Below are positions 10,999 to 26,801 of a stretch of 34,752 nucleotides of DNA, piece by piece. The stretch's first letter is position 1; the number at the start of each line of letters is the position of its first letter. Where the stretch lies: contig CAIJPE010000295.1 of NCBI GenBank assembly GCA_903822435.1, positions 1-34,752 on the forward strand, in the 5' to 3' direction. The DNA comes from an uncultured beta proteobacterium (GTDB taxonomy: Bacteria; Pseudomonadota; Gammaproteobacteria; Burkholderiales; Burkholderiaceae_C). A program made the position numbers and the translations under genes. The notes under the pieces were generated by a model that worked only from the letters and a program-made list of their open reading frames with translations, did no database searches and had not been told where the DNA came from.

Positions 10999-11003
10999 AT
11001 GTG

Positions 11004-11100
11004 GCCCCCAAGCTCGCTTGCGCTCGCTGCCTGCGCCAGAGGCGCCGGGCGTTCGGGCCGTCCGCCGGCGGCCCGGCAGAGCCGGTTCCGCGGCGGGGAT
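11004..11100 (+). repeat. Copy B of the GC-rich hairpin repeat, after the SDR stop codon
   Basis: It starts with GCCCCCAAGCTCGCTTG and ends with CCGCGGCGGGG. Compared with copy A (4111-4190, opposite strand), the outer blocks are nearly identical. The middle is a different sequence that still folds as a hairpin (GCGCC-AGA-GGCGC). Both copies lie directly 3' of a gene and in the same orientation to it. The conserved structure with changed bases suggests the fold matters. Confidence 0.8.
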
Positions 11101-11167
11101 CTTGATTCCGTCCCCATGCTTCGCGCGGTGGAGCACCTGACATGAGTCCGACCAGAGGAGCCTTTCG

Positions 11168-11923
11168 ATGAGCGACAGACTGCAGGGCAAGACCGCCTTC
11201 GTCACCGCGGCAGGCCAGGGCATCGGCCGCGCGGTGGCGCTGGCCTTTGCGCAGCACGGCGCCCGCGTGATTGCCACCGACATCAACACCGCCGCGCTGG
11301 ACAGCCTGGCGACCGAGTGCGGCTGCAGCACGCTGCGCCTGGATGCGACCGATGCAGCGGCCATCACCGCCGCAGCCGCGCAGCACGGGCCGGTGAACGT
11401 GCTGTTCAACGGCGCCGGCTTCGTCCACGCCGGAACGGTGCTGGACTGCACCGAAGCCGAGTGGGACTTCGCCTTCAACCTCAACGTGCGTTCGCAGTTC
11501 CGCACGATCAAGGCCTTCCTGCCGGGCATGCTGGCCGGCGGCGGCGGCTCGATCATCAACGTGGCCTCGGTGGCGGGCAGCATCAAGGGCGCGCCCAACC
11601 GCTTCGTCTACGGCGCCACCAAGGCCGCGGTCATCGGCCTGACCAAGTCGGTGGCGGCCGATTTCGTGGCCAAGGGCATCCGGTGCAATGCGATCTGCCC
11701 GGGCACGGTGGAATCGCCTTCCCTGCGCGACCGCATTGCCGCGCAAGCGCAGGCCAGCGGGCAGACGCTCGCCCAGGTGGAGGCCGGCTTCGTGGCCCGC
11801 CAGCCCATGGGACGCCTGGGCCGCGTGGAAGAAATCGCCGCGCTGGCGGTGTACCTCGCCAGCGACGAATCCGCATTCATGACCGGCACCACCCAAGTGA
11901 TCGATGGTGGCTGGTCTGTCTAA
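11168..11923 (+). CDS. SDR dehydrogenase, 2-keto-3-deoxy-sugar-acid (L-fuconate-type) 4-dehydrogenase candidate
   Basis: A 251-residue NAD-type SDR (acidic D38 after strand 2). It shows TAAGQGIG at 13-20, NGAG at 81-84, and S134, Y148, K152. The sequence closely resembles the DHRS6/BDH2-like group (VLDCTEAEWDFAFNLNVRS; SIKGAPNRFVYGATKAAVIG; VIDGGWSV). Bacterial members of this group next to FAH hydrolases oxidise C4 of 2-keto-3-deoxy-L-fuconate or 2-keto-3-deoxypentonate. The gene is followed by such a hydrolase 51 bases on and then by a UxaA-type dehydratase. AGAGGAG eight bases before the ATG is a strong ribosome-binding site. Lacking a test, 3-hydroxybutyrate-like substrates remain possible. 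Confidence 0.88.
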   Translation: MSDRLQGKTAFVTAAGQGIGRAVALAFAQHGARVIATDINTAALDSLATECGCSTLRLDATDAAAITAAAAQHGPVNVLFNGAGFVHAGTVLDCTEAEWDFAFNLNVRSQFRTIKAFLPGMLAGGGGSIINVASVAGSIKGAPNRFVYGATKAAVIGLTKSVAADFVAKGIRCNAICPGTVESPSLRDRIAAQAQASGQTLAQVEAGFVARQPMGRLGRVEEIAALAVYLASDESAFMTGTTQVIDGGWSV

Positions 11924-11974
11924 CCCACACGGGCGCTTGATCCAAGAGCCTCATCTCCAACTCGAAAGCCAACT

Positions 11975-12838
11975 TTGAAACTACTCCGCCACGGCCCCAA
12001 GGGCCACGAGAAGCCCGGCCTGCTGGATGCCCAAGGCCAGGTGCGCGACCTGTCGGCGCTGATGCCGGATATCACGCCGATGACCTTGACCCCGGCCGGG
12101 CTGGCCGCGCTGCGCAGCGTGGACGTGTCCACGCTGCCGGTGGTGCCCCAGGGGCGGTTGGCGGTGCCCTGGTCGGGGATGGGCAAGTTCATCGCCATCG
12201 GGCTGAACTATGCCGACCACGCGGCGGAATCGGGCATGCCGATCCCGAAGGAACCCATCGTGTTCATGAAGACGCTGGAGTGCGCCGTGGGCGCCAACCA
12301 TCCGGTGGTGCTGCCCCAAGGCTCGGTCAAGAGCGACTGGGAGGTGGAACTGGGCATCGTCATCGGCAGCACGGCGCGCTACGTATCAGAGGCCGATGCC
12401 TTGGAGCACGTGGCCGGCTACTGCGTGGTCAATGATGTGTCCGAGCGCGAATACCAGCTGGAGCGCGGCGGCACCTGGGACAAGGGCAAGTGCTGCGACA
12501 CCTTCGGGCCGGTGGGCCCCTGGATGGTCACGGTCGACGAGGTGGGCGACCCGCAGGCGCTGAGCATGTGGCTGGAGGTCAACGGCCACCGCTACCAGAG
12601 CGGCAGCACCCGCACGATGATCTTCGGCGTGGCCACGCTGGTGAGCTACCTCAGCCGCTTCATGACGCTGCGCCCGGGTGACCTGATCACCACCGGCACG
12701 CCGCCCGGCGTGGGCCTGGGCATCAAGCCGAACCCGGTGTTCCTCAAGGCGGGCGACGTGATGCGCCTGGGCATCGAGAAGCTCGGCGAGCAGCAGCAGA
12801 CCGTGCACGCCTGGGATCCGGCGTTGATCGACGGCTGA
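11975..12838 (+). CDS. FAH-family hydrolase, 2,4-diketo-3-deoxy-sugar-acid hydrolase candidate
   Basis: A 287-residue fumarylacetoacetate-hydrolase-fold protein. Metal ligands E123, E125 (DWEVELGIVIG) and D154 (NDVSERE) are in place, as is the family stretch QLERGGTWDKGKCCDTFGP. The N-terminus MKLLRHGPKG is the standard opening of this group, which fixes the start at a TTG (11975). Relatives hydrolyse 2,4-diketo-3-deoxy-L-fuconate to pyruvate and L-lactate, or the pentose analogue to pyruvate and glycolate, using Mg2+. It lies between the matching 4-dehydrogenase gene and a UxaA-type dehydratase gene, a strong contextual fit. Confidence 0.9.
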   Translation: MKLLRHGPKGHEKPGLLDAQGQVRDLSALMPDITPMTLTPAGLAALRSVDVSTLPVVPQGRLAVPWSGMGKFIAIGLNYADHAAESGMPIPKEPIVFMKTLECAVGANHPVVLPQGSVKSDWEVELGIVIGSTARYVSEADALEHVAGYCVVNDVSEREYQLERGGTWDKGKCCDTFGPVGPWMVTVDEVGDPQALSMWLEVNGHRYQSGSTRTMIFGVATLVSYLSRFMTLRPGDLITTGTPPGVGLGIKPNPVFLKAGDVMRLGIEKLGEQQQTVHAWDPALIDG

Positions 12839-12848
12839 GGGCCAGCCC

Positions 12849-14375
12849 ATGACCCCACCCGCCATCCGCATCCACCCCGCCGACAACGTCGTGATCGCCC
12901 GCCGGCAGTTGCTGGGCGGCACCGTGCTGGATGGCGAAGGCGTGACGGTAGCGGGGCTGATACCGCCCGGGCACAAGGTGGCCACGCGGGCGGTGGCGGC
13001 CGGGGAGCCGGTGAGGCGCTACAACCAGGTCATCGGCACGGCCACGCAGGGCATCGCGCCGGGGCAGCACGTGCACACGCACAACCTGGCCTTCAGCGAT
13101 TTCGCCCGCCGGCACGAGCCCGGCGCGGGCGCGCAACCCACGGCCTACGTGGCCGAGCCGGCCACCTTCGAGGGCATCGTGCGCGAGGACGGCCGCGTGG
13201 CCACGCGCAACTACATCGGCGTGCTGACGTCCGTGAACTGCTCGGCCACTGCCGCACGGGCCATCGCCGACCACTTCAGGCGCGACGTGCACCCCGAGGC
13301 CTTGGCGGACTACCCGAACGTGGATGGGGTGGTGGCGCTCACGCACGGCATGGGCTGCGCCACCGACAGCGATGGCGAAGAACTGCAAGTGCTGCGCCGC
13401 ACGCTGGGTGGCTACGCCCGGCACCCCAATTTCGCGGCCGTGCTGGTGGTGGGCCTGGGCTGCGAGACCAACCAGATCCAGGGCCTGGTGGCCCAAGAGG
13501 GCCTGCAGGAAGGCGCCCGGCTGCTCACCTTCAACATCCAGGACACCGGCGGAACGGCAAAGACAGTGGCCCGAGGGGTCGAGCTGATAACGGGCCTGCT
13601 GCCCGAGGCCAACCGGGTGCGACGCCGGCCGGTGCCGGCCAGCCACCTGGTGGTGGGCCTGCAATGCGGCGGGAGCGACGGTTACTCGGGCATCAGCGCC
13701 AACCCGGCCCTCGGTGCGGCGGTGGACCGGCTGGTGCGCCATGGCGGCACCGCCATCCTCAGCGAAACCCCTGAGATCTACGGCGGCGAACACCTGCTCA
13801 CGCGCCGCGCGGCCAGCCCCGCCGTGGCCGACAAGCTGCTGGCGCGCATCGCCTGGTGGGAGCGCTACACCGCGCGCAACGGCATGAAGATGGACAACAA
13901 CCCATCGGCCGGCAACAAGGCGGGCGGGCTGACCACCATTCTCGAAAAGAGTCTGGGCGCCATCGCCAAGAGCGGCACCACCAACCTGGTGGATGTCTAC
14001 GGCTTTGCCGAGCGCGTGGCAGCCCGCGGCTTCGTCTACATGGACACGCCGGGCTACGACCCGGTCTCGGCCACCGGGCAGGTGGCGGGCGGTGCCAACC
14101 TGATCTGCTTCACCACGGGCCGCGGTTCGGCCTACGGCTGCGCGCCCACGCCTTCGCTCAAGTTCAGCACCAACACCGCCTTGTGGCAGCGGCAGCAAGA
14201 CGACATCGACCTGGACTGCGGCGGCATCGTCGAGGGCCTGGAGACCGTGGATGAAGCCGGCGAGCGCATCTTCCGCTTGATGCTGGACACCGCCTCCGGC
14301 CGCGCCACGCGCAGCGAGCGGCACGGTTACGGCCAGAACGAGTTCGTGCCCTGGCAACTCGGCGCCGTCATGTAG
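12849..14375 (+). CDS. UxaA-family sugar-acid dehydratase (altronate/galactarate/D-arabinonate dehydratase type)
   Basis: A 508-residue full-length UxaA-type enzyme. An N-terminal SAF domain (about 10-85, ending GQHVHTHNLAF) is joined to the large dehydratase domain, with GRVATRNYIGVLTSVNC near 127, GMGCATDSDG near 167, LQCGGSDGYSG near 270 and the NPSAGNKAGGLTTILEKS stretch. Conserved Cys/His residues are the expected metal site. The family dehydrates altronate, galactarate and, in Herbaspirillum as I recall, D-arabinonate. Only 10 bases separate it from the hydrolase gene, so the two probably act in one route. A second dehydratase of a different fold is encoded at 8516. Confidence 0.9.
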   Translation: MTPPAIRIHPADNVVIARRQLLGGTVLDGEGVTVAGLIPPGHKVATRAVAAGEPVRRYNQVIGTATQGIAPGQHVHTHNLAFSDFARRHEPGAGAQPTAYVAEPATFEGIVREDGRVATRNYIGVLTSVNCSATAARAIADHFRRDVHPEALADYPNVDGVVALTHGMGCATDSDGEELQVLRRTLGGYARHPNFAAVLVVGLGCETNQIQGLVAQEGLQEGARLLTFNIQDTGGTAKTVARGVELITGLLPEANRVRRRPVPASHLVVGLQCGGSDGYSGISANPALGAAVDRLVRHGGTAILSETPEIYGGEHLLTRRAASPAVADKLLARIAWWERYTARNGMKMDNNPSAGNKAGGLTTILEKSLGAIAKSGTTNLVDVYGFAERVAARGFVYMDTPGYDPVSATGQVAGGANLICFTTGRGSAYGCAPTPSLKFSTNTALWQRQQDDIDLDCGGIVEGLETVDEAGERIFRLMLDTASGRATRSERHGYGQNEFVPWQLGAVM

Positions 14376-15740: not shown

Positions 15741-15769
15741 GCCGCCGGACCGGGCCGCGCCAGGCTCAG
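15737..15769. terminator. Possible bidirectional terminator between convergent genes
   Basis: A 7-base perfect inverted repeat CTGAGCC/GGCTCAG spans both stop codons of the convergent genes, with a GC-rich loop of 19 bases. There is no T tract. The location suits a shared transcript end, but the stem is short. Confidence 0.35.
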
Positions 15770-17925
15770 ACCGCGTCGGCCATGAACGCCGAATTGCGGG
15801 GTGCCAGCAGCACCGGCACCGGGCGGCGGCGCATCAGCCGCTTGAACTCTTCCGGATCGACGGCGCGGCTGGTCAGGAAGCCCTGATACTCGTCGCAGGA
15901 CAGGGATTGCAGGAAGGCCAGTTGGGCCTCGGTCTCCACGCCCTCGGCGACCACCTTGAGCTTCAGGCTGTGGGCCAGGGCAATGATGGCCGTGACGATG
16001 GCCTCGTCGTCGGGGTCGGTGCCCAGGTCGCGCACGAACGAGCGGTCGATCTTCAAGGCCGCGATGGGCAGCTTCTTGAGGTAGGCCAGCGACGAATAGC
16101 CCGTGCCGAAATCGTCGATGGAGATCTGCACGCCCATCTCGGCCAGCTCCTGCGCGATGCGCACGCTCAGTTCCGGGTCGGCCAGCAGGATCGATTCGGT
16201 GACCTCGATCTCCAGGCAGGCCGCCGACACGCCGTGCTCCTTGAGGGCCTGGGCCACCAGCGCCGGCAGGCCCCGCTCTCGCAGGTGGGTCGAGGCCAGG
16301 TTCACCGCCACGGGAATGGACTCCAGGCCGTCGGCAATCCACTGGGCGCTCTGGCGGCAGACCGTGCGGATGGCCCATTCGCCAATGGGAATGACCAGCC
16401 CGGCATCTTCGACCAGCGGGATGAACTCCGACGGCGGCAGCATGCCGCGCTCGGGGTGCTGCCAGCGGATGAGCGCCTCCGCGCCCACCACGCGGCCCGT
16501 GACCACGTCCACCCGCGGCTGGTAGTGCAGCACGAACTCGTCGCGCTCCAGGGCGCGGCGCAGGCGGGTCTCGGTGCGCAGGCGCTCCAGCGCCCGCTCG
16601 TTCATCGACCGGTCGTAGAGCTGGAAGCCCCCGCGGCCCGCCGCCTTGGCGCGGTACATCGCGGTGTCGGCATTCATCAGCAGGGTGTCGATGTCGTGGC
16701 CGTCCTCGGGGAACATGGCCACGCCCACACTGCCGCCCACGAAGACCTCGGTGCCTTCCACCGTGACGGCCGCATTCAGCGCCTCCACCAGCCGGGCCGC
16801 CACGGCTGCGGCGTCTTCCGGGCGGTCCACGTCGGTCAACAGCACGATGAACTCGTCTCCGCCCAGGCGGGCGATGCTGTGCGGCGAGTTCTCCGGGCTG
16901 GCCCGGCCCAGGCCATCCTGCTGGCGCAGGGCGCCCAGCAGGCGAGCGCCGGCCAGGCGCAGGAGTTCGTCCCCGGCCTTGTGGCCCAGCGTGTCGTTGA
17001 CGCGCTTGAAGTTGTCCAGGTCCACGAACATGATCGCCGCGCGACGGTGGTGCCGCTCGGCCTGTGCAATGGCCTTGCCCAGCTGCTCCACGAAGAGCAG
17101 CCGGTTCGGCAGGCCGGTCAGCGGGTCGTAGTAGGCCAGCTGGCGGATCTGTTCCTCGGCGTCCTTGCGGCGCGAGATGTCGTGCACCGCGCCGGCCAGC
17201 CGCACGGCCGTGCCGTCGGTGTGCCGCTCGATCACCTCCACCTGCTGGTGGACGTGGCGCACGGCCCCGTCGGGCAGGTTGATGCGGTGGTCGATGGCAA
17301 ACCCTTCCCCGTTGGCCACGGCCCGCGAACAGGCCTGCGTGAAGCGCGCCGCGTCCTCGGCGTGCACGGTGGAGAAGAATTCGGAGGGTTCGGCGCCCTC
17401 GGTCGAGTGCGGGTGCCCGAAGATGCGCCAGGCCTGGTCCGAAGGCTCCAGCAGGCGGCGCGGCACGTCCCATTCCCAGTCGCCCATCTCACCGATGCGC
17501 TGGGCATTGGACAGGCGGCGCTGGTTCTGCTGCAGGCTGTTGATGGCAGCACTGGCCCGCAGGATGTACTGCACCCGGTGCGGCAGCACGCCCCAGTTGA
17601 TGGGCTTGGTGATGAAATCGGTGGCACCGGCCTTGAACGCACGCTCGATCGATTCCGTGTCGTCCAGGCCGGTCATCATCACCACCGGTATGCGGTCGCC
17701 GCTGGGCAAGGCGCGCAGGTGTTCGCAAGCCGTGAAGCCGTCCATCACCGGCATGCTGACGTCCAGCAGGATGAGCGCCGGCAGCTCCAGCTTCAGGACG
17801 TCCAGGGCGGCCTGGCCATTCTGGGCCTCGATCACCATGAAGCCGGCCTTGGTGAGCGTGGCGCGCGTCAGGCGTCGGCCGCCGGCGTCGTCGTCCACCA
17901 CCAGGATGCGTGGGCCCGTTTTCAT
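15766..17925 (-). CDS. Response regulator with REC, PAS, GGDEF and EAL domains
   Basis: A 719-residue c-di-GMP protein. REC occupies 1-125 with phospho-acceptor D55, T85 and K107. A PAS domain follows (about 145-255). The GGDEF domain spans about 265-440 with an intact GGDEF at 355-359; the EAL domain spans about 450-700. EAL catalytic residues are present: E482 (EAL), N541, E573, D603-D604 (DDFGTGYSS), K624, E660 (AEGVET) and Q680. Both cyclase and phosphodiesterase could be active; phosphodiesterase looks complete. The RxxD inhibitory site is absent and an extra stretch of about ten residues precedes GGDEF. The start ATG overlaps the kinase stop (ATGA), so kinase and regulator are very likely cognate. 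Confidence 0.95.
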   Translation of the reverse strand: MKTGPRILVVDDDAGGRRLTRATLTKAGFMVIEAQNGQAALDVLKLELPALILLDVSMPVMDGFTACEHLRALPSGDRIPVVMMTGLDDTESIERAFKAGATDFITKPINWGVLPHRVQYILRASAAINSLQQNQRRLSNAQRIGEMGDWEWDVPRRLLEPSDQAWRIFGHPHSTEGAEPSEFFSTVHAEDAARFTQACSRAVANGEGFAIDHRINLPDGAVRHVHQQVEVIERHTDGTAVRLAGAVHDISRRKDAEEQIRQLAYYDPLTGLPNRLLFVEQLGKAIAQAERHHRRAAIMFVDLDNFKRVNDTLGHKAGDELLRLAGARLLGALRQQDGLGRASPENSPHSIARLGGDEFIVLLTDVDRPEDAAAVAARLVEALNAAVTVEGTEVFVGGSVGVAMFPEDGHDIDTLLMNADTAMYRAKAAGRGGFQLYDRSMNERALERLRTETRLRRALERDEFVLHYQPRVDVVTGRVVGAEALIRWQHPERGMLPPSEFIPLVEDAGLVIPIGEWAIRTVCRQSAQWIADGLESIPVAVNLASTHLRERGLPALVAQALKEHGVSAACLEIEVTESILLADPELSVRIAQELAEMGVQISIDDFGTGYSSLAYLKKLPIAALKIDRSFVRDLGTDPDDEAIVTAIIALAHSLKLKVVAEGVETEAQLAFLQSLSCDEYQGFLTSRAVDPEEFKRLMRRRPVPVLLAPRNSAFMADAV

Positions 17926-20804
17926 GCGGGTTGCCTCATTTCTGCGCGCAGTGCCGGTTGCACCCGGTCCATCATGGCTTCGATGGCCGCGACCAGATCC
18001 CCCGCCCCGGAGAGGTCCCCGGCCTTGGCCCGCTGTTCGAGCTTGCGGCACAGTTCTCCGAGCGACTTGGCGCCGACGTTGAAGCTGGCCGACTTCAGGG
18101 CGTGGGACACGCTGCCCATCTCGGCGGCGTTGGCGTTTTCCAACGCGCGACGCAGGCCGGCCAGGTGTTGCGGGGCTTCGTCCAGGTACATCTGCAGCAC
18201 CTCGATGATGACGGAGCCGTCTTCGTCCACGGCGCGAATGTTGTCCAGCGCCGCGCGGTCGAGCACGCGGTCGCGCGTGTCGGCAGCCGGTGCGACCGAT
18301 GCCGCGGGCTCGGCAGCCGCAGGCGCATCGCGGCGTGAGACCCGGTCGGGCGGCAGCCAGCGCGCCAGGATCGAGGCCAGCTGCTTGCGCGTGTAGGGCT
18401 TGGCCAGGTGGGCGTCCATCCCGGCGGCCAGGCACTGCTCGGCATCGCCCACCAGGGCATTGGCGGTCAGGGCCACGATGGGCTTGTGCCCGCCCGTGCC
18501 GCGCGTGCGCTCGATGTCGCGGATCGCCCGGGTGGCCTCGTAGCCGTCCATCAGGGGCATCTGGCAGTCCATCAGGATGATGTCGTAGGGCTCGCGCTCG
18601 AACGCGGCCACGGCTTCCTGGCCGTTGGGCACGATGTCCCAGGTGCAGCCCAGCGCCTTGAGCATGTTGCGCGCCACCACCTGGTTGACACCGTTGTCCT
18701 CGGCCAGCAGCACGCGGGCCTGGATGCGCGGCAGCGAGAGGTCCACCGTCGAGCGGGTGGCCTCGGGTGCGACCAGGCCGACGGTCTGGGCCAGCGCACG
18801 GAACAGGTCCATCCGCTTGACCGGCTTGGAAAGGTAGCCCTCGAAGCCCGCGGCGCGTGCCCGTGAGACTTCTTCGGAGGAATGCAGCGAAGTGACCAGC
18901 ACCATCGAGATCCTGGCGAAGTCCGGGTCCGCCCGCATGGCCGTGGCGAGCTCGATACCGTCCATCCGCGGCATCTTCATGTCGATCACGGCGATCTCGA
19001 AGGGATCGCCCGCAGCCAGGGCCGCGCGCAACTGCTCCAGCGCCTCGAAGCCGTCGCCCGCGGTCTCGGTGCGCATGCCGCCGGCCAGCACGTGCTGCTC
19101 GAGGATCTCGCGGTTGGTGGCGTTGTCGTCCACCACCAGAACCCGGCGGCTGGACAGGCCCCCCGGGTGCGGCACCACGGGTGCGTGGTTGGCCGCGATC
19201 AGCGGCAGCGTGAACCAGAACGTGGAGCCATCGCCCGGCGTGCTGTCCACGCCGATCTGGCCGCCCATCAGTTCGACCAGGCTGCGGCAGATCGCCAGGC
19301 CCAAGCCACTGCCGCCGAAGCGCCGCGTGGTGGACCCGTCGGCCTGCTCGAAGGCCTGGAAGAGCCGCTGCCGCACCTCTTCGGGGATGCCGATCCCGGT
19401 GTCGTGGACCGCCACCCGCAAGGTGCGCTCGTCCTGTTGCTGCACGTCCACCAGCACTTCACCGCTGTCGGTGAACTTGACCGAATTGCCGATGAGGTTG
19501 GTGAGCACCTGGCGCAACCGGTAGGGGTCGCCGCGCAGGGCGCTGGGCAGGCGTTCGTCGATGCGGCAGGCGATCTCCAGCTGCTTGGCATGCGCACGCG
19601 GCGCCAGCAGCTGCACCACGTCCTCGATGGCCTGGTACAGGTCGAAGTCCAGAGTCTCGGTCTCGAGCTTGCCGGCCTCGATCTTCGAGAAGTCCAGGAT
19701 GTCGTTGATGATCGATAGCAGCGCTTCGCCCGAGGTGCGGATGGTCTCCACGAAGGGCCGCTGCTGCTCGTCCAGGGGGGTCTCCAGCAGCAGTTCCGCC
19801 AGGCCCAGCACGCCGTTCATCGGGGTGCGGATCTCATGGCTCATGTTGGCCAGGAACTCCGACTTCGAGCGGCTGGCGTGCTCGGCCGCTTCTTTGGCGG
19901 TGCGCAGTTCCTGCTCGCGCTGGAGCAATTGCTGCTCGGTCTGCGCGCGCTGCGTGATGTCGAAGAACACCGTGTAGACGCCCACCACCACGCCCTGGTC
20001 GTTGACGTCGGGCACATGGCGGCCCGAGTGCCACACGGTATGGCCCTGGCGGTCCACGCGCTGGCGCTCCAGCGGCACGTGTTCGCCCTGCAGGGCCGCC
20101 GTCAGCTTGGGTTCGATGTCGGCCCAGACCTGGTCGCCGACCACGTCGTGGACCAGGCGCCCCGAGACTTCGTCGTCGGTCTTGCCGAGCCACTGCTCCT
20201 GGGCGCGGTTGATGTAGCGGTAGTGCCCCTCGGCGTCGATGTACGAGATGGTGACCGGGATCTGGTCCATGATCACCCGCAGGCGCCGCTCACCAGCCAC
20301 GGACTTGTCCAGAGCGCGCTGCAGCAGGCTCACTTCCATGGCCAGCAGATCGCAGCCCACCACCTGGCCCTTGCCATCCGTTCGCGGAGCCAGCTCCACC
20401 TGCAGCCAACGGTCCGCGGCAGAGGGCCGCAGGTGGCAGCACACCAGGCGCCGCGCGTGGCCGGCCAGGGCGTCGGCCACGGCCGGGCCCAGCGCGTGGG
20501 CGGCCAGCGGGCCGAAGATGTCGGCCAGGGGCTGTCCCAGCTGCTGCTCGGCGGGGGTTCCCAGCCATTCGACCAACGCGGGTGAAAGGGCGATGCATTC
20601 GCGGTGGCGGCCCGCACTGGCGGCCATTGCACCCGCGGGCAGGCGGGCCGGCGCGCCGCCGGGCCGTGGAGGCCGCGTGAAGCCGCTCTCACCCGCTTCG
20701 TGGTGGGCGGTGCGGCGTCTTTCGAGCAGTCGCCAGCCCACCCACAGTGCGAGGGCCGCGAGCGCTGCAACGGACAGCGCGTCCATCGGCAGGATGATGT
20801 TCAT
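17922..20804 (-). CDS. Hybrid histidine kinase: PAS-HisKA-HATPase-REC-REC-HPt
   Basis: A 960-residue membrane-anchored kinase. One helix (about 9-26) leads into a PAS-like region (65-160) and a second PAS with PAC (175-290). The HisKA site is H323 (NMSHEIRTPMNG); the ATPase N box (NLIGNSVKF), G1 (DTGIGI) and G2 (GGSGLGLA) follow. Two receiver domains carry D608 and D746, and a C-terminal HPt domain carries H901 (SHALKSAS). This is a complete phosphorelay in one chain, BarA/ArcB-like, whose HPt would pass phosphate to the REC of the GGDEF-EAL protein encoded next. The ATG overlaps the preceding phosphatase-fold gene by four bases. It has no periplasmic domain of its own, so external sensing would need partners. 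Confidence 0.95.
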   Translation of the reverse strand: MNIILPMDALSVAALAALALWVGWRLLERRRTAHHEAGESGFTRPPRPGGAPARLPAGAMAASAGRHRECIALSPALVEWLGTPAEQQLGQPLADIFGPLAAHALGPAVADALAGHARRLVCCHLRPSAADRWLQVELAPRTDGKGQVVGCDLLAMEVSLLQRALDKSVAGERRLRVIMDQIPVTISYIDAEGHYRYINRAQEQWLGKTDDEVSGRLVHDVVGDQVWADIEPKLTAALQGEHVPLERQRVDRQGHTVWHSGRHVPDVNDQGVVVGVYTVFFDITQRAQTEQQLLQREQELRTAKEAAEHASRSKSEFLANMSHEIRTPMNGVLGLAELLLETPLDEQQRPFVETIRTSGEALLSIINDILDFSKIEAGKLETETLDFDLYQAIEDVVQLLAPRAHAKQLEIACRIDERLPSALRGDPYRLRQVLTNLIGNSVKFTDSGEVLVDVQQQDERTLRVAVHDTGIGIPEEVRQRLFQAFEQADGSTTRRFGGSGLGLAICRSLVELMGGQIGVDSTPGDGSTFWFTLPLIAANHAPVVPHPGGLSSRRVLVVDDNATNREILEQHVLAGGMRTETAGDGFEALEQLRAALAAGDPFEIAVIDMKMPRMDGIELATAMRADPDFARISMVLVTSLHSSEEVSRARAAGFEGYLSKPVKRMDLFRALAQTVGLVAPEATRSTVDLSLPRIQARVLLAEDNGVNQVVARNMLKALGCTWDIVPNGQEAVAAFEREPYDIILMDCQMPLMDGYEATRAIRDIERTRGTGGHKPIVALTANALVGDAEQCLAAGMDAHLAKPYTRKQLASILARWLPPDRVSRRDAPAAAEPAASVAPAADTRDRVLDRAALDNIRAVDEDGSVIIEVLQMYLDEAPQHLAGLRRALENANAAEMGSVSHALKSASFNVGAKSLGELCRKLEQRAKAGDLSGAGDLVAAIEAMMDRVQPALRAEMRQPA

Positions 20805-21391
20805 GCTGCGCTCCCCATGGCTTGCAGGCTCATCAATCGGGCCCCGTCGAAGGTCTCGACGACACCGTTGGCCAGTTCAAGGCGGCCGCTCCGGCCCGAG
20901 AGTTCGCCCAGCACGCGGGCCACGCCCTTGCTGCCCACCAACAGCGGCCGGCGGGCCAGGCAGGGCGCGATGCGGCGCAGGGCGCCCTCGATGCGGGCCA
21001 TGAATTCGTCCTCGGACTCGCCGCCCGGAGGGGTCTGGCGGGCCTCGAGCAAAGGCTGCGTCGCAGCGATGCTCTGCAGGTTCCACTGGCCCAGCAGCCG
21101 TTCGCCGAAGGCGGGCTCGACCACGACCGGCACGCCGCGCAGGCGGCTCGCGATGATCCGGGCCGTCTCGCGGGTGCGCTGCAGGTCGCTCGTCACGATC
21201 AACCCGACGGCCGGGTCGAGGCGGGCGATCTGCGCGGCCGCTGCCTGGGCCTGCTCACGGCCCTGTTCGGTCAGCGGCAGGTCGAGATCGCCCCCGCAGC
21301 GAAGGCCCGCCAGGTTGGCCGCGGTGGCCCCATGACGGACAAAACGCAGGGGGTGCCGCGTGGCGACGTGAGAGTCGGGTTGGGCGTTCAT
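20801..21391 (-). CDS. Histidine-phosphatase-fold protein lacking the second catalytic histidine
   Basis: A 196-residue branch-1 histidine phosphatase fold. The phospho-accepting motif is present (FVRHGATAAN, with R19 and H20), as is the second arginine (SDLQRTRETA, R72). The usual C-terminal S/G-H-G-G motif reads LLVGSKGVARVL, with K165 where histidine normally sits. That change should weaken or alter phosphatase chemistry; the protein may bind rather than cleave phospho-ligands. It lies in an operon between the alpha/beta hydrolase gene (20 bases) and the hybrid kinase gene (4-base overlap). SixA, a related phosphatase, acts on HPt domains, so a role in modulating this phosphorelay is conceivable. 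Confidence 0.85.
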   Translation of the reverse strand: MNAQPDSHVATRHPLRFVRHGATAANLAGLRCGGDLDLPLTEQGREQAQAAAAQIARLDPAVGLIVTSDLQRTRETARIIASRLRGVPVVVEPAFGERLLGQWNLQSIAATQPLLEARQTPPGGESEDEFMARIEGALRRIAPCLARRPLLVGSKGVARVLGELSGRSGRLELANGVVETFDGARLMSLQAMGSAA

Positions 21392-21411
21392 GGCGGTGGC
21401 GCGCACGAAGC

Positions 21412-22563
21412 TCAGCGCAAGGCGCCCAGGGGCGCGAAAGCGATGGGGTTGCCCGGGTAGGCGGTGCGCGCCTCGGCGTGCAGCACGCTCCATTCCTTTC
21501 CGTCGGGGGCCTGGCCATCGAGCCATTGGCGGATGAAGCCGATGTGGTTGCGATCGGCCAGCAGCGGGGTGTGGCCGGTGTCGGGCACATGCATGATCGT
21601 GATGGGCTTGCCGCGAGACATGCGCCGGATGGTCGGCTCGAACAACGCATCCGACTGCATGCCGTGGATCAGCATCACCGGGCAGTTCACGCGCTTCCAC
21701 TGCTCCCACTGCAGCACGCTGCGATGGGCGCCGCGCCGGTAGGCCTGCATCGCGCGCACGTCGTGGCGGTAGATGCGGCCGCCTTCGTCGTCCGACCAGC
21801 GGGTCTGGTGGAAGGTCAGGTTGAAGCGGATGTCGTCGCTGACCGGCCCGTCGTTCTTCACCGAAGCCCCGACCTTGCGCAGCAGGTCGGCCGGGTGGCG
21901 GAAGACGTAGTGGCGGGCGATGGTGTCGGCCCGCCGCTTGCGACGCCGCGCCGGGATGTGCGGCCCGACGTCGTTCAAGATCAGGCGTTGCACCAACTGC
22001 GGATGCCGCGCCATCAATTCGATGGCGGCGCTGCCGCCCATGGAAGAACCCAGGATGGTGACGGGGCGCCCGCCCAGGTGCAGGATGGTCTGGCGCAGCT
22101 GTTCTGCGTAGGTGGCCAGCGAGTAGTCGTCCTCGGCGGCCAGCCAGCCGGAGCGGCCGCGGCCCAGCCAGTCCATGCAGATGACCCGGTAGCGGTCGCA
22201 CAGATCGGCAGCCAGGTAGTGAAAGCGCATGGCCACGTTGGCCACGCCGCCGCAGCACAGCAGGACCGGCGCATCGGCCGGGCCCCATTCGGTGTAGGCC
22301 ACGCTGGCGTGATAGGGCTTCTTCAGCCGCAGCGGTGTGCCGGGTTGCAGACGCGTCGGGTGCTCATAGTCGAAATGGCTCAGCCGGAACTGCCCGTGGA
22401 AGCGGCCGACCACGCGGCTGGCCAGTGCCATGTACTCCTGCCAGCTGGTCAGGATCCGGCGCTGGCCGCGCACGGGCGGCTCCCAGGCAACGTCCATCAG
22501 GGCACCGGGCACCGTGTCGCCTGACGCCTCGTCCCGGGGCACGACCACCAAGGCGGGCTTCAA
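21412..22563 (-). CDS. Alpha/beta-fold hydrolase
   Basis: A 383-residue hydrolase when read from the TTG at 22563, which has AGGAG seven bases upstream; the longer open frame has no such signal. An N-terminal extension of about 80 residues precedes the fold. The nucleophile elbow is GSSMGG with S172; the oxyanion region is CCGGVANVAMRFHYLA, and the likely acid and base are D303 (HGMQSD) and H329 (DTGHTPLL). Family members include esterases, haloalkane dehalogenase-like and acyl-ester hydrolases; the substrate is unknown. It is the first gene of the leftward signalling operon, 288 bases from the divergent sensor operon. It may process a ligand of the sensor module. Confidence 0.88.
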   Translation of the reverse strand: MKPALVVVPRDEASGDTVPGALMDVAWEPPVRGQRRILTSWQEYMALASRVVGRFHGQFRLSHFDYEHPTRLQPGTPLRLKKPYHASVAYTEWGPADAPVLLCCGGVANVAMRFHYLAADLCDRYRVICMDWLGRGRSGWLAAEDDYSLATYAEQLRQTILHLGGRPVTILGSSMGGSAAIELMARHPQLVQRLILNDVGPHIPARRRKRRADTIARHYVFRHPADLLRKVGASVKNDGPVSDDIRFNLTFHQTRWSDDEGGRIYRHDVRAMQAYRRGAHRSVLQWEQWKRVNCPVMLIHGMQSDALFEPTIRRMSRGKPITIMHVPDTGHTPLLADRNHIGFIRQWLDGQAPDGKEWSVLHAEARTAYPGNPIAFAPLGALR

Positions 22564-22851
22564 GCATGGCTCCTGAGGCACGAGAAGGCGGGCAAGACGT
22601 TCGTCATCCGTTTTCCTGGTCAGGGACTTCACGCCAGGCCACGGGGCCGATCGCAAAGCCATCCAAAAGTTGTGAAAGCAAGCGAAACCGCCGCATCTGC
22701 TGGAGCTATCGGCGCGGTGGGGCAGCGACTTGAGCCGGCAAAGCGTCGCTGTTTTCTCGACCACTGGTTACGCAGTTCGGGTCAAGTCACGTCCTGACAC
22801 GCCGAAATCCACGATGAAGCCGGTGCTGCAACGAACAGGGAGATCCAGGGT
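22564..22851. promoter_or_regulatory. Divergent intergenic region of the signalling/transport locus
   Basis: This 288-base region separates the leftward hydrolase-phosphatase-kinase-regulator operon from the rightward sensor-MFS-binding-protein operon and must hold both promoters. It is less GC-rich than its surroundings. I saw no confident -35/-10 pair, palindromic operator or small gene. Confidence 0.45.
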
Positions 22852-23619
22852 ATGCAGAGGACTACGGGTCGCATGGTCACCGTCGCCGTCGTGGTGTGCG
22901 GATTCGCGGTGGGCATGGCCGGGTTGCTGAACTACTTCAAGTACCGCAGCACCGCCAACAGGATCGTCACGGAGCGGCTGGTCGTCACCGGCAAGGCCGT
23001 GGAGAACGTGGTGCAGGTGGCGCTTGACCTGGGCCTGCAATTCGACGAGATCACCACGCTGCCGGCCACCCTGGACCGCGAGCGGCGTACGGACAACCTG
23101 ATCCAGGGCATCGACATCTTCGATGCCGAGGGCAAGATGCTCTACAGCACGGATCCCAAGCGGGCTTCCAGCACCGTCCCGGCAGCCTGGCTGGCCGCCG
23201 CGGCCAAGGCGCACGGTGAGGACTGGATGGTCGACGACAGCACCGAGCCCGCGGCGGGCATGATGATGAAGACCAGCTTCGGCGTGGCCGTCGGGCAGCT
23301 CGCGCTGCGCTACTCCAACGTGGGCGTGGAAAGCGCCAACGGCGACGTGGCCAAGGCCGTGGCCCTGGATGCCGCGCTCGTCTTCGTGATCGCGTCCGCC
23401 CTGGCCGCACTGTCCATGACCTGGGTCATGCGCCATCTGGCACGCGACGTGGCCGAGGCCGAGGCGGCACTGTTGTCCGGCGAGGCCGCGCGCGCCGGCA
23501 GCGGGGCCGCGCGAGGCCCCTTCGGCGCCGCGTTGCGGCGATTCATCCAGACCACGCGGAACGTGGAGGCGGAGATCGCCGACCTCGCCAGCCGCGCCCA
23601 ACGCGGCCACCAGCCATGA
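22852..23619 (+). CDS. Membrane sensor protein with periplasmic Cache-like domain and no output domain
   Basis: A 255-residue protein. Helices at about 8-28 and 167-192 bracket a periplasmic domain of some 135 residues. That domain contains ALDLGLQFDEITTLP and IQGIDIFDAEGKMLYST, the pattern of Cache-type ligand domains (xLGIPLxxL then IxDxxGxVLY). A short HAMP/coiled-coil-like tail follows (193-255), with nothing resembling a kinase, cyclase or methyl-accepting domain. It is similar in layout to the N-terminal third of the next protein, suggesting duplication. ATGA overlap couples it to that MFS-fusion gene; the two may hetero-oligomerise. GGGAGATCC lies before the ATG. I know no named family. 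Confidence 0.8.
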   Translation: MQRTTGRMVTVAVVVCGFAVGMAGLLNYFKYRSTANRIVTERLVVTGKAVENVVQVALDLGLQFDEITTLPATLDRERRTDNLIQGIDIFDAEGKMLYSTDPKRASSTVPAAWLAAAAKAHGEDWMVDDSTEPAAGMMMKTSFGVAVGQLALRYSNVGVESANGDVAKAVALDAALVFVIASALAALSMTWVMRHLARDVAEAEAALLSGEAARAGSGAARGPFGAALRRFIQTTRNVEAEIADLASRAQRGHQP

Positions 23620-25721
23620 ACGACACCTACCTGCGGGGCATCTACCTGCGCCTGGCGGGCGTCGTGACCTTGATCGTCACGGTGGCGCTGCTGGCCAACG
23701 CCATGCTCTCGCACCGCACCTTCGAGCAGGCCCTGGCCCCGCAGATGGCCGCCAAGGTGGCCAGCGTGGGTTCTTCGATCCGCGCGCTGGTCTACAAGGC
23801 GGTCGACCTGGGCCTGGACTTCAAGAGCCTGTACGGCGTGAACGAGCGCTTCCTGGACGCCAAGGACGAAGGCCGTGAGATCACCTACATGGCGATCACC
23901 GACGACAAGGGCGCGGTGCTGTACGAGAACGAGAAGACACCCAGCGAGGCGGCCGAGTATTTCCGCAGCGCCCCCATCCTGAATGCCATCCAGCGCAACG
24001 ACGATGGCGTCACGCCCCTGAACCGCGTGGGCGGGCTGTTCGTGGTGTCGATGACCCTGGGTGTGCCGGACCATCCGCTGGGGATGCTGCACCTGGGCGT
24101 GGACAGCTCCTTTGCCGACCGCATCGTGCTGGACATGCTCTACGACGTGGGCGTCGTGCTGGTGGTGAGCCTGTTCTTCACCATGGAATTGCTGCACTTC
24201 ATCGCCGGCATCAAGCTCGAGAACTCGTTGCGGGTCCTGGGCGCATCGTTCGAGCGCGGCGCGGAAGGCAACTTCGCAACCCAGGCCTACCGCAGCGGCG
24301 AGCACGCCTTCGGTGGACTTCTCAAGGTGATGGACGGCATCCTGGCCCGGGTGAACAACGCCTATGCGGCGCTTGCCGGCGTGATCGAAGCCGGCCGGCA
24401 GCTGCCGGCGCATGAGCGCCCGCCAGGCCTGGCCTCTGCGCAGGCCGGCATGAAGTCGCTCGCGCAGCGCTTCCGCTTCGGCACCGAAGCGTCGGTGGCC
24501 CGCGTCGACGAAGGGCAGCTGGCCCGCGTGCGGGCACCGCTGTTCATGTTCATCCTGGCCGAGGAGCTGACCCGTTCATTCATTCCCGGCTACGTCAAGG
24601 AACTGCTGGTGCCGATCCCCGGCCTGTCGCCACAGATCGTGGTGGGCCTGCCGATCGTGCTGTTCATGCTGATCGTAGCCGTGGGGCAGCCCTTCCTGGG
24701 CGTGTACTGCGAGCGCGTCGGGCACCGCCGCCTGATGTTGACGGGCGCGGGCATCACCACCCTGGGCTTCGTGGCCACGGCCATGGCCCACACCGTGATC
24801 GATCTTTTGCTGTGGCGCTCGATGTGCGCGGTGGGCTACGCCATGGTCTTCGTGGCGGGGCAGTCGTTCGTGCTGGACAACGCCACGCCGGCCAATCGGG
24901 CACGCAGCTTTGCGGTGTTCGTGGGGGCGATCATGGCGGCCACGGTCTGCGGGCCGTCCATCGGCGGCATCCTGGCCGACAACATCGGCGAAAGGCCCAC
25001 CCTGCTGATCGCCGCCCTGCTGGCGGCCGGCTCGATGGGGGTGATCCGCTTCATGCCGGGCGCGCTGCCGGCCGCGGAAGGCAAGGCCCCGGCCCGGTTG
25101 CCGACCCTCCGCGAGATGGCCACGCTGCTCACCAACCGCCGCTTCATGACCATGACCGGCCTGGCCGCCATGCCGGCCAAGATCCTGCTGACCGGCGTGT
25201 GCTTCTACCTGCTGCCGCTGTACATCGTCTCGGTGGGCAGCACGCAGGCGATGGCCGGGCGCATCCTGATGACCTACGCGGTCATGATGGTGGTGCTGGC
25301 CCCCGTGACCGCCCGCCTGGCGGTAAGCCGCGAGCGCATGCAATGGCTGGTGGGCGGCGGCCTGATCGTCTCGGGCTGCGGCGCCATGCTGATGCTGGTG
25401 GGCAACGGCGTGGGCTGGGTGTTCGGCGCCGTCGGGCTCATCGGGCTCGGTCAGTCGATGTCCATCTCGGCGCAGAGCGCCCTGGTCAGCGAACACTGCG
25501 AAGCCGAGATCGACAAGCTCGGCGATGGCGTGGTGTATGGCGTCTACCGCCTGTTGGAGCGGCTGGGCAACGCGCTGGGCCCGTTGATCGCGGCCTTCCT
25601 GGTCCTGGGCTTCAGCTACCGCACCGGCTTCGTGGCCATCGGCGCGGCCGTGGCGCTGTGCGGCGTGGGATTCATCCTGGCCACCCGCCGGGGCCCGGGC
25701 CCTGCGCTGGCCACCGCCTGA
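23616..25721 (+). CDS. Fusion of a Cache-like sensor and HAMP-like linker to an MFS transporter
   Basis: A 701-residue protein. Helix 1 is at 12-31. A periplasmic Cache-like domain follows (32-175: AVDLGLDFKSLYGVNERFL, then ITYMAITDDKGAVLYENE). Helix 2 is at 176-198, followed by a HAMP-like/helical linker at 199-300. From about 305 to 695 it is an MFS permease of about 12 helices, with the loop 2-3 motif GVYCERVGHRRLM (362-374) and a long central loop (480-500). MFS proteins are normally about 400 residues and lack sensor domains, so ligand sensing appears wired directly to transport. Neighbours suggest signalling by ligand. The fold boundaries are estimates. A frameshift-created join is unlikely, since the frame is continuous and codon use is uniform. 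Confidence 0.88.
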   Translation: MNDTYLRGIYLRLAGVVTLIVTVALLANAMLSHRTFEQALAPQMAAKVASVGSSIRALVYKAVDLGLDFKSLYGVNERFLDAKDEGREITYMAITDDKGAVLYENEKTPSEAAEYFRSAPILNAIQRNDDGVTPLNRVGGLFVVSMTLGVPDHPLGMLHLGVDSSFADRIVLDMLYDVGVVLVVSLFFTMELLHFIAGIKLENSLRVLGASFERGAEGNFATQAYRSGEHAFGGLLKVMDGILARVNNAYAALAGVIEAGRQLPAHERPPGLASAQAGMKSLAQRFRFGTEASVARVDEGQLARVRAPLFMFILAEELTRSFIPGYVKELLVPIPGLSPQIVVGLPIVLFMLIVAVGQPFLGVYCERVGHRRLMLTGAGITTLGFVATAMAHTVIDLLLWRSMCAVGYAMVFVAGQSFVLDNATPANRARSFAVFVGAIMAATVCGPSIGGILADNIGERPTLLIAALLAAGSMGVIRFMPGALPAAEGKAPARLPTLREMATLLTNRRFMTMTGLAAMPAKILLTGVCFYLLPLYIVSVGSTQAMAGRILMTYAVMMVVLAPVTARLAVSRERMQWLVGGGLIVSGCGAMLMLVGNGVGWVFGAVGLIGLGQSMSISAQSALVSEHCEAEIDKLGDGVVYGVYRLLERLGNALGPLIAAFLVLGFSYRTGFVAIGAAVALCGVGFILATRRGPGPALATA

Positions 25722-25757
25722 GCGGGCTCAACAAGCATCGAATCGGGAGAACACACC

Positions 25758-26801
25758 TTGGACACTTCGAGCACCCGTCGCCAATGGCTGGCAGCGGCCA
25801 TGGCCGCCGCCCTGCCCGCCGGCGCCCTCGCGCAGAAGACGGCGGCAGACCGCAGCGGCAAGCCGTTCCAGATCTACGCCATCACCTTCCGAGGCATGAC
25901 CGACGTGGAGAAGGGCTTCGCCGACTACCTCAGTTCGCGCAAGATCCCGGTGCAGATCACCTACCGCGACCTCAACCGCGATGCCACGCGCATGCCGGGG
26001 TTCATGGAAGAGATCCGAGCCACCAAGCCCGATCTCATCTACACCTGGGGCACCTCGGTCACGCTGGGCGTGGTGGGGCCCTACGACACGCCGAATCCGG
26101 CGCAGTACATCAACGACATTCCGGTGCTCTTCACGCTGGTGGCCGCGCCCACCATGGCCAAGATCGTCAGGGACCTGCGCACGCCGCGCCGCAACGTCAG
26201 CGGCGTGACACACGTCGGCTCGGCGGAGGCGCAGATGCGCGCGATGGCCAAGTACCGGCCGTTCAAGACGGTGGGCGTGCTGTACACCACCACCGAGCAG
26301 AACTCGGTGGCGGTGATGAAGGACATGCGGCGCATCGGCGACGAAAAGGGCTTCCGCGTGATCGAGCGCACCTTCAAGCTGGACGGCAACCGCAAGCCCA
26401 CGGCCGACGGTGCGGTGGAAATGCTCCACGAGATCAAGGAGTCGGGCGCCGAGTGGCTGTACCTGCTGCCCGACAGTTATCTGGGCACGCTGGCCGAAGC
26501 GCTGATCATCCCCACCGCCATGCAGTTGAACCTGGCGACCTTCGCATCGACAGAGCAGCTGATGCAGGCCGGGGCGCTGTCGGGCCTGGTCAGCCGCTAC
26601 TACAACGTGGGGCAGTTCACCGCGCACAAGGCCGAGCAGATCCTGATCGCACGCGAGCCGATGGCCAATATCCCGGTCGAAACGTTGTCTCGCTTCTCCT
26701 ACCAGGTGCGCATGCCCGCCGCGCGTCAGCTGAACCTGCCGCCGCCGCTGCCATTGCTGAGCTATGCCGAGCTGATCACCACCGAAGTGGCCACGCAGTA
26801 G
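25758..26801 (+). CDS. ABC_sub_bind-type periplasmic binding protein with twin-arginine signal
   Basis: A 347-residue exported protein. The N-terminus STRRQWLAAAMAAALPAGALAQ has a twin-arginine-like motif and an ALA cleavage site near residue 26. The mature part resembles the ABC_sub_bind (TrpX/YrpB-like) family: a two-lobed fold with TKPDLIYTWGTSVTLGVVG, PVLFTLVAAPTMAKIV and FATFASTEQLMQAGALSGLV-like segments. The start is TTG at 25758, with GGGAGA seven bases upstream. No ABC permease or ATPase gene is adjacent, so it may present ligand to the Cache-like sensors or to the MFS fusion, whose gene ends 36 bases upstream. Its transcript ends against a convergent oxidoreductase gene. Confidence 0.88.
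   Translation: MDTSSTRRQWLAAAMAAALPAGALAQKTAADRSGKPFQIYAITFRGMTDVEKGFADYLSSRKIPVQITYRDLNRDATRMPGFMEEIRATKPDLIYTWGTSVTLGVVGPYDTPNPAQYINDIPVLFTLVAAPTMAKIVRDLRTPRRNVSGVTHVGSAEAQMRAMAKYRPFKTVGVLYTTTEQNSVAVMKDMRRIGDEKGFRVIERTFKLDGNRKPTADGAVEMLHEIKESGAEWLYLLPDSYLGTLAEALIIPTAMQLNLATFASTEQLMQAGALSGLVSRYYNVGQFTAHKAEQILIAREPMANIPVETLSRFSYQVRMPAARQLNLPPPLPLLSYAELITTEVATQ

Follow-up and report, generated by a model that had tools for sequence, protein, structure and literature searches.

A divergent seven-gene locus of an uncultured beta proteobacterium and the exchangeable neighbours of its sensor, transporter and binding protein genes

Layout and linkage of the seven genes

The stretch of DNA analysed here (hereafter the window) comprises 34,752 nucleotides of contig CAIJPE010000295.1 from an uncultured beta proteobacterium (GenBank assembly GCA_903822435.1), and between positions 15766 and 26801 it holds seven open reading frames (ORFs) in two divergent operons, as confirmed from the ORF list and Pfam. 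The plus-strand operon encodes a lone sensor, a sensor fused to a major facilitator superfamily (MFS) transporter and a periplasmic binding protein, which we refer to together as the trio. On the minus strand, the order outward from the divergent point is hydrolase, histidine-phosphatase-fold gene, hybrid histidine kinase and GGDEF-EAL regulator of cyclic di-GMP (c-di-GMP) (Table 1). Overlaps of 4 bp occur at three junctions, namely kinase/phosphatase-fold gene, kinase/regulator and sensor/MFS fusion. Seven genes, two divergent operons, a 288-bp gap and four-base overlaps of the kinase gene are all as an earlier note, made from the sequence alone, had described them. The locus is real, conserved and more general than first described, and the exchangeable output side is the new part.

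A search with residues 1-330 of the MFS fusion matched 454 proteins, of which 120 are listed, and a pattern scan of the genome collection gave 145 matched stretches that were reduced to 42 loci, to which genome searches added others. Neighbours were counted as genes within 10 kb of the MFS gene in 68 loci, the window included (loci and genomes carry L and G numbers); L073 and L074, duplicates of L049 and L040, were left out, and the automatic loci L001-L030, L077-L099, L116-L132, L140, L141 and L143-L147 were not used. The hybrid kinase is present in 13 of the 68 loci, again counting the window, and 12 of these 13 keep all seven genes in the same divergent layout, which is why we regard the operons as a real unit. 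The thirteenth, L037, is clipped by contig ends, with a partial regulator gene at one end and no binding protein at the other, where the contig stops just after the MFS gene. For the genes seen, orientations agree in all 13 kinase loci. The regulator gene of L047 is cut by the contig start, and L034 and L038, each with a split ORF on the kinase side (kinase and hydrolase, respectively), are still counted among the 12 complete loci; these and a split MFS ORF in L070 are perhaps sequencing or assembly errors. Another locus of the same clade, L035, lies on a contig that starts before the kinase side could appear.

The searches of whole genomes point the same way. Among 61 relatives, kinase orthologues (E ≤ 1e-200) were found in three, namely the three genomes of one genus that carry the MFS fusion, and the kinase genes lie within about 6 kb of that of the fusion. 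Orthologues of the hydrolase (E ≤ 1e-50) were found in 4 of 349 genomes of the order and those of the phosphatase-fold protein (E ≤ 1e-20) in the same four, all at most about 6 kb from the MFS fusion; the window's own genome sits in each of these counts, and three of the four genomes are of one genus. An MFS match at E ≤ 1e-30 occurs in 16 of the 349 genomes, including these four, and in the other 12 neither the hydrolase nor the phosphatase-fold gene reached its cut-off. With a looser hydrolase cut-off (E ≤ 1e-30) 16 of the 61 genomes match; beyond the four strong genomes the matches are general relatives with 30-36% identity. In each genome only the best few candidates were scored, 14 of them in the kinase search and, for the genomes of the order, 5 in the hydrolase search, 9 in that with the phosphatase-fold protein and 3 in that with the MFS fusion. 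Close orthologues of the hydrolase, phosphatase-fold protein and kinase were thus not seen far from the MFS fusion or alone, which would have spoken against the claim of the earlier note that the two operons belong together; that claim holds. One scan of viral contigs found no relative.

Among the NCBIfam matches listed (at most 25 for each of the seven proteins) only a GGDEF domain model lies above its cut-off, and no equivalog does. No sigma-70-like consensus was found in 22540-22880, and the divergent region holds a single terminator-like stem at 22587-22605. The TTG start of the hydrolase was our choice, longer starts being possible; in the relatives a script assigned the gene starts, not all of them correctly or with certainty (e.g. 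the binding protein of L032), and the start of the window's binding protein was taken from the ORF list, its script-set start in the motif alignment being unreliable. Upstream, at 8516-14375, lies a sugar-acid-type cluster with an IlvD/Edd dehydratase, two short-chain dehydrogenases, an FAA hydrolase and an altronate/galactarate dehydratase, which is probably unrelated to the seven-gene locus.

Table 1. Features of the seven-gene locus (positions in the window; TM, transmembrane)
Feature	Position	Strand	Length and start	Basis
REC-PAS-GGDEF-EAL c-di-GMP cyclase/phosphodiesterase response regulator	15766..17925	-	719 aa	Pfam
Hybrid histidine kinase: short N-terminal TM, PAS domains, HisKA-HATPase, two REC, HPt	17922..20804	-	960 aa	Pfam, TM scan
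Histidine-phosphatase-fold protein, Ser for second catalytic His in conserved S-K-G motif	20801..21391	-	196 aa	Pfam, alignments
Alpha/beta hydrolase, N-terminal extension, candidate Ser-Asp-His set	21412..22563	-	383 aa, TTG start	Pfam, motif alignment
Divergent intergenic region	22564..22851	.	288 bp	ORF boundaries
Stand-alone single-Cache sensor subunit, TM-Cache-TM-cytosolic helix, without output domain	22852..23619	+	255 aa	AlphaFold2, Foldseek
Single-Cache sensor fused to 12-TM major facilitator transporter	23616..25721	+	701 aa	AlphaFold2, Foldseek
Periplasmic substrate-binding protein, ABC_sub_bind (TrpX-like) family, twin-arginine-type signal	25758..26801	+	347 aa, TTG start	Pfam/NCBIfam

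The sensor, the transporter fusion and the binding protein

Pfam gave no match in the lone sensor and matched MFS_1 alone in the fusion protein, so the sensor parts were read from structure models. The AlphaFold2 model of the lone sensor (31-row alignment) has a mean predicted local distance difference test (pLDDT) score of 86.2 and a TM-Cache-TM topology, with a Cache/PAS-like periplasmic domain that Foldseek matches to WalK, CitA and DcuS. The model of the fusion (51-row alignment, mean pLDDT 85.9) runs TM-sensor-TM-cytosolic helices and then a 12-helix MFS part, whose fold is complete and matches MdfA, VMAT1/2 and NorA. The secondary-structure order of the lone sensor is repeated in the fusion, the two sensor parts match each other weakly but collinearly (23% over 141 residues; E 0.001 in a single comparison), and PF17203 is precomputed on some relatives.

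The MFS part carries the motifs GxxxERxGxRR, CGPSIGGxLAD and LERxGNAxGP, which include those that we take to belong to loop 2-3 and helix 5. Near relatives keep these motifs, and distant rows show changes (e.g. CAPAVGG in Oxalobacteraceae, SGAAIGG in L100-L104). Together with the 12 TM helices of the model, the loop 2-3 and helix 5 motifs of the near relatives are those of an antiporter, and of the 35 columns that do not vary in the 51-row alignment 33 fall beyond residue 300, in the MFS part. The NCBIfam matches listed for the fusion (25 of 31) are mostly to drug-efflux MFS models. Because the motifs are kept in near relatives, a working transporter is the favoured interpretation of the MFS part, as far as motifs and the model can indicate.

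The lone sensor was called a sensor without output in the earlier note, and we read it differently. In 13 loci with a long fused MFS protein (L050, L052-L057, L062, L107, L110, L112, L137 and L138), the lone-sensor profile matches the first ~200 residues (33.8-170.4 bits); behind them comes a match to the profile made from the sensor part of the fusion (27.7-116.6 bits), and then the MFS part. L112 and L137 are the weak ends of these score ranges, the lone-sensor match of L112 spans residues 29-141 only, and L107 and L112 also hold a separate sensor-like ORF nearby. For comparison, the unfused fusion protein of the window scores 28.6 bits against the lone-sensor profile, in the shared Cache region. 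Two genes that are fused into one polypeptide elsewhere are a classical sign of products that work together, and therefore both genes probably make one MFS receptor, with the lone sensor as its second subunit. A decayed receptor was rejected, since the lone sensor is conserved and relatives have it joined to the MFS protein by fusion.

In 67 of the 68 loci a binding protein gene lies at most 10 kb from the MFS fusion, and the one exception is cut by a contig end. As the earlier note had claimed, it comes without an ATP-binding cassette (ABC) transporter: a scan of 17 window proteins (the seven of the locus and ten others) gave neither an ABC ATPase nor a permease, so that no ABC importer is seen with it there. 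A leftover of an ABC importer is ruled out by the MFS neighbour kept in those 67 loci. One case counts against the rule that the binding protein lacks an ABC transporter, namely the adenylate-cyclase locus L101, where a fused ABC_membrane and ABC_tran gene of exporter-type layout (L101:5208-7058) divergently adjoins the trio; L102-L104 have ORFs of similar size at this place. The nearest solved relatives of the binding protein are 3lkv, 3lft and 6hni. Its score with the TrpX model, 81.7 bits, is far below the cut-off of 390, and we therefore assign no ligand. The 12 rows of the clade whose start is usable have a pair of adjacent arginines close to the N-terminus, and 5 of 6 rows of the sister clade lack it. 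All ten Oxalobacteraceae loci (L058-L061, L064-L066, L069, L071 and L072) have an unassigned protein, of ~222-231 aa where called, following the binding protein; that of L060 has no Pfam match.

Enzymes beside the trio and their exchange

The recognised neighbours of the 68 trios within 10 kb are a Ser/Thr kinase in 30 loci, the hybrid kinase with the GGDEF-EAL regulator in 13, a SpoIIE phosphatase in 6, an adenylate cyclase in 4 and type VI secretion genes in 4, with none recognised in 11. Signalling enzymes of four unrelated classes are therefore found near the trio in 53 loci, and no locus has both kinase types together. Because the same trio adjoins such different signalling enzymes elsewhere, it looks like a plug-in sensor with an exchangeable output side. 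The earlier note had pictured a module specific to phosphorelay and c-di-GMP, which is here one of five neighbour kinds, and it had proposed to ask how often all seven genes co-occur around the MFS fusion: they do so nearly always where the hybrid kinase is present, and that kinase was found beside 13 of the 68 trios. The Ser/Thr partner has ~750-900 aa and a Pkinase-dCache-HAMP architecture (Pfam on seven proteins, from L043, L048, L051, L052, L053, L056 and L058), the adenylate cyclase likewise has dCache and HAMP (Pfam on L101), and the kinase of L105 is of another type, with TPR repeats.

The history of these exchanges was traced in a midpoint-rooted tree of 59 MFS fusions, built without L111 (a fragment), L073-L075 and some further loci. 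All 13 histidine-kinase loci and the cut L035 fall on one branch (support 100/100). The group that joins it (97/97) has Ser/Thr kinases (L041, L043, L044, L045, L048 and L115) and shares the hydrolase and the phosphatase-fold gene, except for the short contig L044. The places of the SpoIIE rows are unsure because of their long branches. In a hydrolase tree of 26 rows, made by a short search and rooted on the single long row L063, the histidine-kinase loci form one group (SH-aLRT, an approximate likelihood ratio test, 92), and the order in which it and two groups with Ser/Thr kinases branch is not resolved. A single swap is the simplest history, in which a Ser/Thr kinase was replaced by the hybrid kinase and GGDEF-EAL regulator while the trio, hydrolase and phosphatase-fold gene were retained, the direction of replacement depending on the rooting (midpoint in the MFS tree). 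Gene order differs as well: the phosphatase-fold gene stands between hydrolase and kinase in the window clade, whereas the seven Ser/Thr-kinase loci that have this gene carry it on the far side of the hydrolase, with the kinase gene on the other strand. A Ser/Thr kinase that had merely moved elsewhere in the histidine-kinase genomes was also considered and rejected, since a relative survives in one of the three and not beside the trio: G012 has a nearly full-length relative (49%) in a 5.4-kb locus without a trio gene, and G017 and G000 have shorter matches to the kinase region.

In the window clade the hybrid kinase and the regulator seem intact. The phospho-acceptor (H-box) His of the kinase is kept in 12 of 12 covering rows, both receiver Asp residues and the HPt His in 13 of 13, the receiver Asp of the regulator in 12 of 12 aligned rows, and its GGDEF and EAL motifs in 11 of 11 covering rows; judged by its motifs, the regulator carries the signatures of a diguanylate cyclase and a phosphodiesterase. 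Ahead of the H-box, between none and two TM segments were called in each of 12 kinases, and in none of these kinases does a TM pair enclose a domain, so no periplasmic domain is present. The kinase scores below the equivalog models of BarA (506 versus a cut-off of 890) and TorS (508.6 versus 676.5). The earlier note had reasoned that a kinase without a periplasmic domain and an operon with two such domains are complementary; the first half of this stands, and the argument is weakened because the alternative Ser/Thr kinase of the sister clade carries its own dCache together with HAMP, and because the membrane anchor of the histidine kinase is not clearly conserved.

The hydrolase is among the best conserved proteins across output types and occurs in 27 of the 68 loci (13 hybrid-kinase, 12 Ser/Thr-kinase, L050 and L063). 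Its candidate Ser (GSSxGG) and His are conserved in 26 of 26 rows, and the residue that we take to be the acid in 25 of 26, with Asn in L045. The phosphatase-fold gene is found in 22 loci. Neither gene was found in the ten Oxalobacteraceae loci with the trio and a Ser/Thr kinase, and for this reason we do not count them to the core of the module. The earlier note was right about the fold of the phosphatase-like protein (PF00300), though this may not be an ordinary phosphatase. Of the residues of a branch 1 histidine phosphatase, Arg and Glu are kept. So is RHG, apart from RHA in one of the 19 locus rows that cover it and in 10 of the 120 database rows. Where the alpha-ribazole phosphatase 2owd has its second, presumably catalytic, His (THGG), the alignment shows Ser (GSKG), in all 21 locus rows and in each of the 120 database matches listed out of 1117. 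The protein may therefore be an inactive or altered enzyme. These 120 matches outline a histidine-phosphatase subfamily in which Ser-Lys-Gly (once Ser-Arg-Gly) replaces the second catalytic His motif. A SixA-type phosphohistidine phosphatase feeding the phosphorelay was ruled out by the same Ser and by a sixA model score of 20.7 against a cut-off of 74.5.

Some further neighbours were observed in certain loci. The trio lies inside type VI secretion clusters in L133, L134, L137 and L138, of the same class as the window; Pfam on L133 and L137 identified VgrG-type, ImpA, VipA, ClpB/V-type and FHA genes, the trio adjoining VgrG-type and DUF6931 genes in L133 and ClpB/V-type and FHA genes in L137, and L134 and L138 were placed by sequence match. 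In L136 (8353-9393 and neighbours) the trio and a SpoIIE phosphatase are near a YscU/FlhB-family export gene, and a secretin gene is beside the trio in L076 (12700-15330). Adenylate cyclase-FHA matches are near the trio and Ser/Thr kinase in L041, L046, L048, L051, L075 and L115 (Pfam on L051 only), which suggests a step from phospho-threonine to cyclic AMP; one more match lies ~9 kb away in L036. An Acetyltransf_3 gene lies upstream of the sensor in L051, with matches in L076, L105, L113 and L114. A second, diverged copy of the trio was found in G058, G188 and G286 (L076, L114 and L113), two of the three second copies having their own Ser/Thr kinase.

A possible signalling route and its relation to known systems

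We consider it slightly better than an even bet that the trio is a sensor-transporter receptor which controls a separately encoded neighbouring enzyme, here the hybrid kinase and through it c-di-GMP. The plus-strand operon would then make one membrane receptor, in which the lone sensor and the N-terminal sensor of the fusion pair as two periplasmic Cache domains atop a working MFS transporter. The secreted binding protein would present a small molecule to the Cache pair, and ligand binding, transport turnover or both would change the cytosolic helices of the pair, which would act on the enzyme of the adjacent gene, in the window on the cytoplasmic PAS region of the hybrid kinase. The contact would likely be cytosolic, at this region, because a TM anchor of the kinase was called in only 6 of 12 orthologues. 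Phosphate would pass along a His-Asp-(Asp)-His(HPt) path to the receiver of the GGDEF-EAL protein and so set c-di-GMP. The hydrolase would be dedicated to the module, with the signal molecule or its product as probable substrate, and the phosphatase-fold protein with its Ser would probably serve as regulator or be an enzyme of altered kind. What the data show are the seven parts, how they are conserved and linked, the fusion of the two sensor genes in relatives and the exchange of enzymes beside the trio. The Cache pairing, the kinase contact, transport, the ligand and the direction of control are steps that we infer. A bolder version, which we put forward tentatively and hold somewhat less probable than its opposite, is an undescribed universal front end, that is, a two-subunit transporter-based Cache receptor with its own binding protein, plugged into at least five unrelated outputs and using transport itself as signal input.

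Several points weigh against a receptor that acts on its neighbours. Contact, transport and ligand are all inferred, and the exchangeable neighbours could reflect a shared need for a metabolite and not contact; the neighbour counts measure proximity only, with no baseline from unrelated MFS genes. Eleven trios have no recognised output within 10 kb, and while in five of these (L035, L067, L106, L109 and L111) one flank or both, measured from the MFS centre, are shorter than 3 kb, six (L050, L068, L076, L100, L110 and L139) have more than 3 kb on both sides. The N-terminal profile match ends at ~195-199 of 292 in 7 of the 13 long fusions, and by this measure several of them are without most of the cytosolic linker expected to carry the signal. 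The N-terminal TM anchor of the kinase, given the uncertainty of starts, is not clearly conserved, and the Ser/Thr kinase of the sister clade, with a periplasmic dCache of its own, may not depend on the trio for sensing.

The trio could instead be a sensor-gated transporter and nothing else, its MFS part gated by periplasmic ligand through the Cache pair, while the signalling operon separately senses the internalised molecule by PAS or controls expression of the transporter, and the shared substrate explains the linkage. The antiporter-like motifs and folds (MdfA, NorA, VMAT), the cytosolic PAS domains and inconstant TM anchor of the kinase and the 11 trios without output would suit this; however, a plain transporter would not need the signalling enzymes near 53 trios or the type VI genes near 4 more (counts without a random-MFS baseline), and the output of the window's regulator is c-di-GMP and not a DNA-binding domain, so that we regard it as unlikely. 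Still less probable is an MFS part that binds without transporting, as a pure sensor. It would fit the fusion to a sensor and the linkage to signalling genes, but the antiporter loop and helix motifs are kept in near and partly in distant relatives, the invariant columns gather in the MFS part, and LysP, DctA and UhpC transport independently of the signalling partner (accessible part of PMC7096432). We hold a similarly low opinion of a degradation or detoxification island, in which the hydrolase and phosphatase-fold protein process a compound that the MFS protein exports and the binding protein scavenges, with the phosphorelay and c-di-GMP pair as passenger regulator: the hydrolase is well conserved across output types and keeps its candidate catalytic residues in all but one of 26 rows, but the ten Oxalobacteraceae loci keep the trio and Ser/Thr kinase with no such enzymes found. 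That the two operons are neighbours by chance we practically dismiss, given the common layout of the kinase loci and the specific co-occurrence of orthologues, with nothing found in its favour.

Transporter-coupled sensing itself is known from a few cases, namely UhpC, DctA/DcuB and CbrA, and the proposed receptor shares features with each. In glucose-6-phosphate sensing by UhpA-UhpB-UhpC, UhpC is an MFS protein, UhpB a kinase with many TM helices and the response regulator of DNA-binding type. UhpC is a transporter-like membrane protein that is linked to a histidine kinase and reports ligand (accessible part of PMC7096432). The window likewise links a transporter-type protein to a histidine kinase, but its MFS protein comes with a Cache sensor of its own, with another Cache subunit and with a binding protein, and the partner is an exchangeable enzyme, here a hybrid kinase with HPt and a GGDEF-EAL regulator. 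None of the 25 of 31 NCBIfam matches listed is to UhpC or UhpT, the nearest folds being those of MdfA, VMAT and NorA; the kinase has none to two TM segments in place of many, and the regulator is REC-PAS-GGDEF-EAL and not DNA-binding. The transporter DctA acts as co-sensor through the cytosolic PAS domain of DcuS or the linker before it (accessible parts of PMC3892338 and PMC8307970). DcuS-DcuR with DctA/DcuB thus resembles the window in Cache-type sensing (the Foldseek match to DcuS) and, as proposed, in a transporter co-sensor acting through the cytosolic PAS domain of a kinase, but the sensor domain is on the kinase in DcuS and on the transporter and a separate subunit here. We know of no binding protein in DcuS/DctA. 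In CbrA an SLC5 transporter is fused to a kinase, which puts transport and sensing in one signalling chain (accessible part of PMC7096432), while here the transporter is fused to a sensor domain and not to a kinase, with several output classes beside it.

A periplasmic binding protein also feeds a signalling protein in TorT-TorS and LuxP-LuxQ, and the kinases TorS, LuxQ and AioS have their own periplasmic domain. The AioX family works in this manner as well (accessible part of PMC5908839). As in these three systems, the binding protein here shows no ABC partner in the proteins scanned and is linked to signalling genes, but none of the 12 kinases has a periplasmic docking domain. With tripartite hybrid kinases of the BarA/TorS type the window's kinase shares the HisKA-HATPase-REC-HPt phosphorelay, and it differs in falling below the equivalog cut-offs and lacking a periplasmic domain. 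Cache domains occur in kinases, cyclases, phosphatases and Ser/Thr kinases (accessible part of PMC4822843). The words transporter and MFS were not found in the accessible main text of that paper, nor MFS or major facilitator in the accessible part of PMC8846402 on c-di-GMP sensing, and the literature consulted, mostly without subscription papers, contained no description of Cache- or sensor-fused MFS proteins with these partners, which is weak evidence of novelty.

If the receptor proposed here is real, transporter-coupled sensing would become a general, exchangeable input for several signalling chemistries. The natural swaps among Ser/Thr kinase, histidine kinase, phosphatase, cyclase and secretion cluster would offer a comparative set for finding the surfaces that carry the signal, and the trio would be a candidate route by which an outside signal may reach a c-di-GMP regulator whose kinase lacks a domain on the outside.

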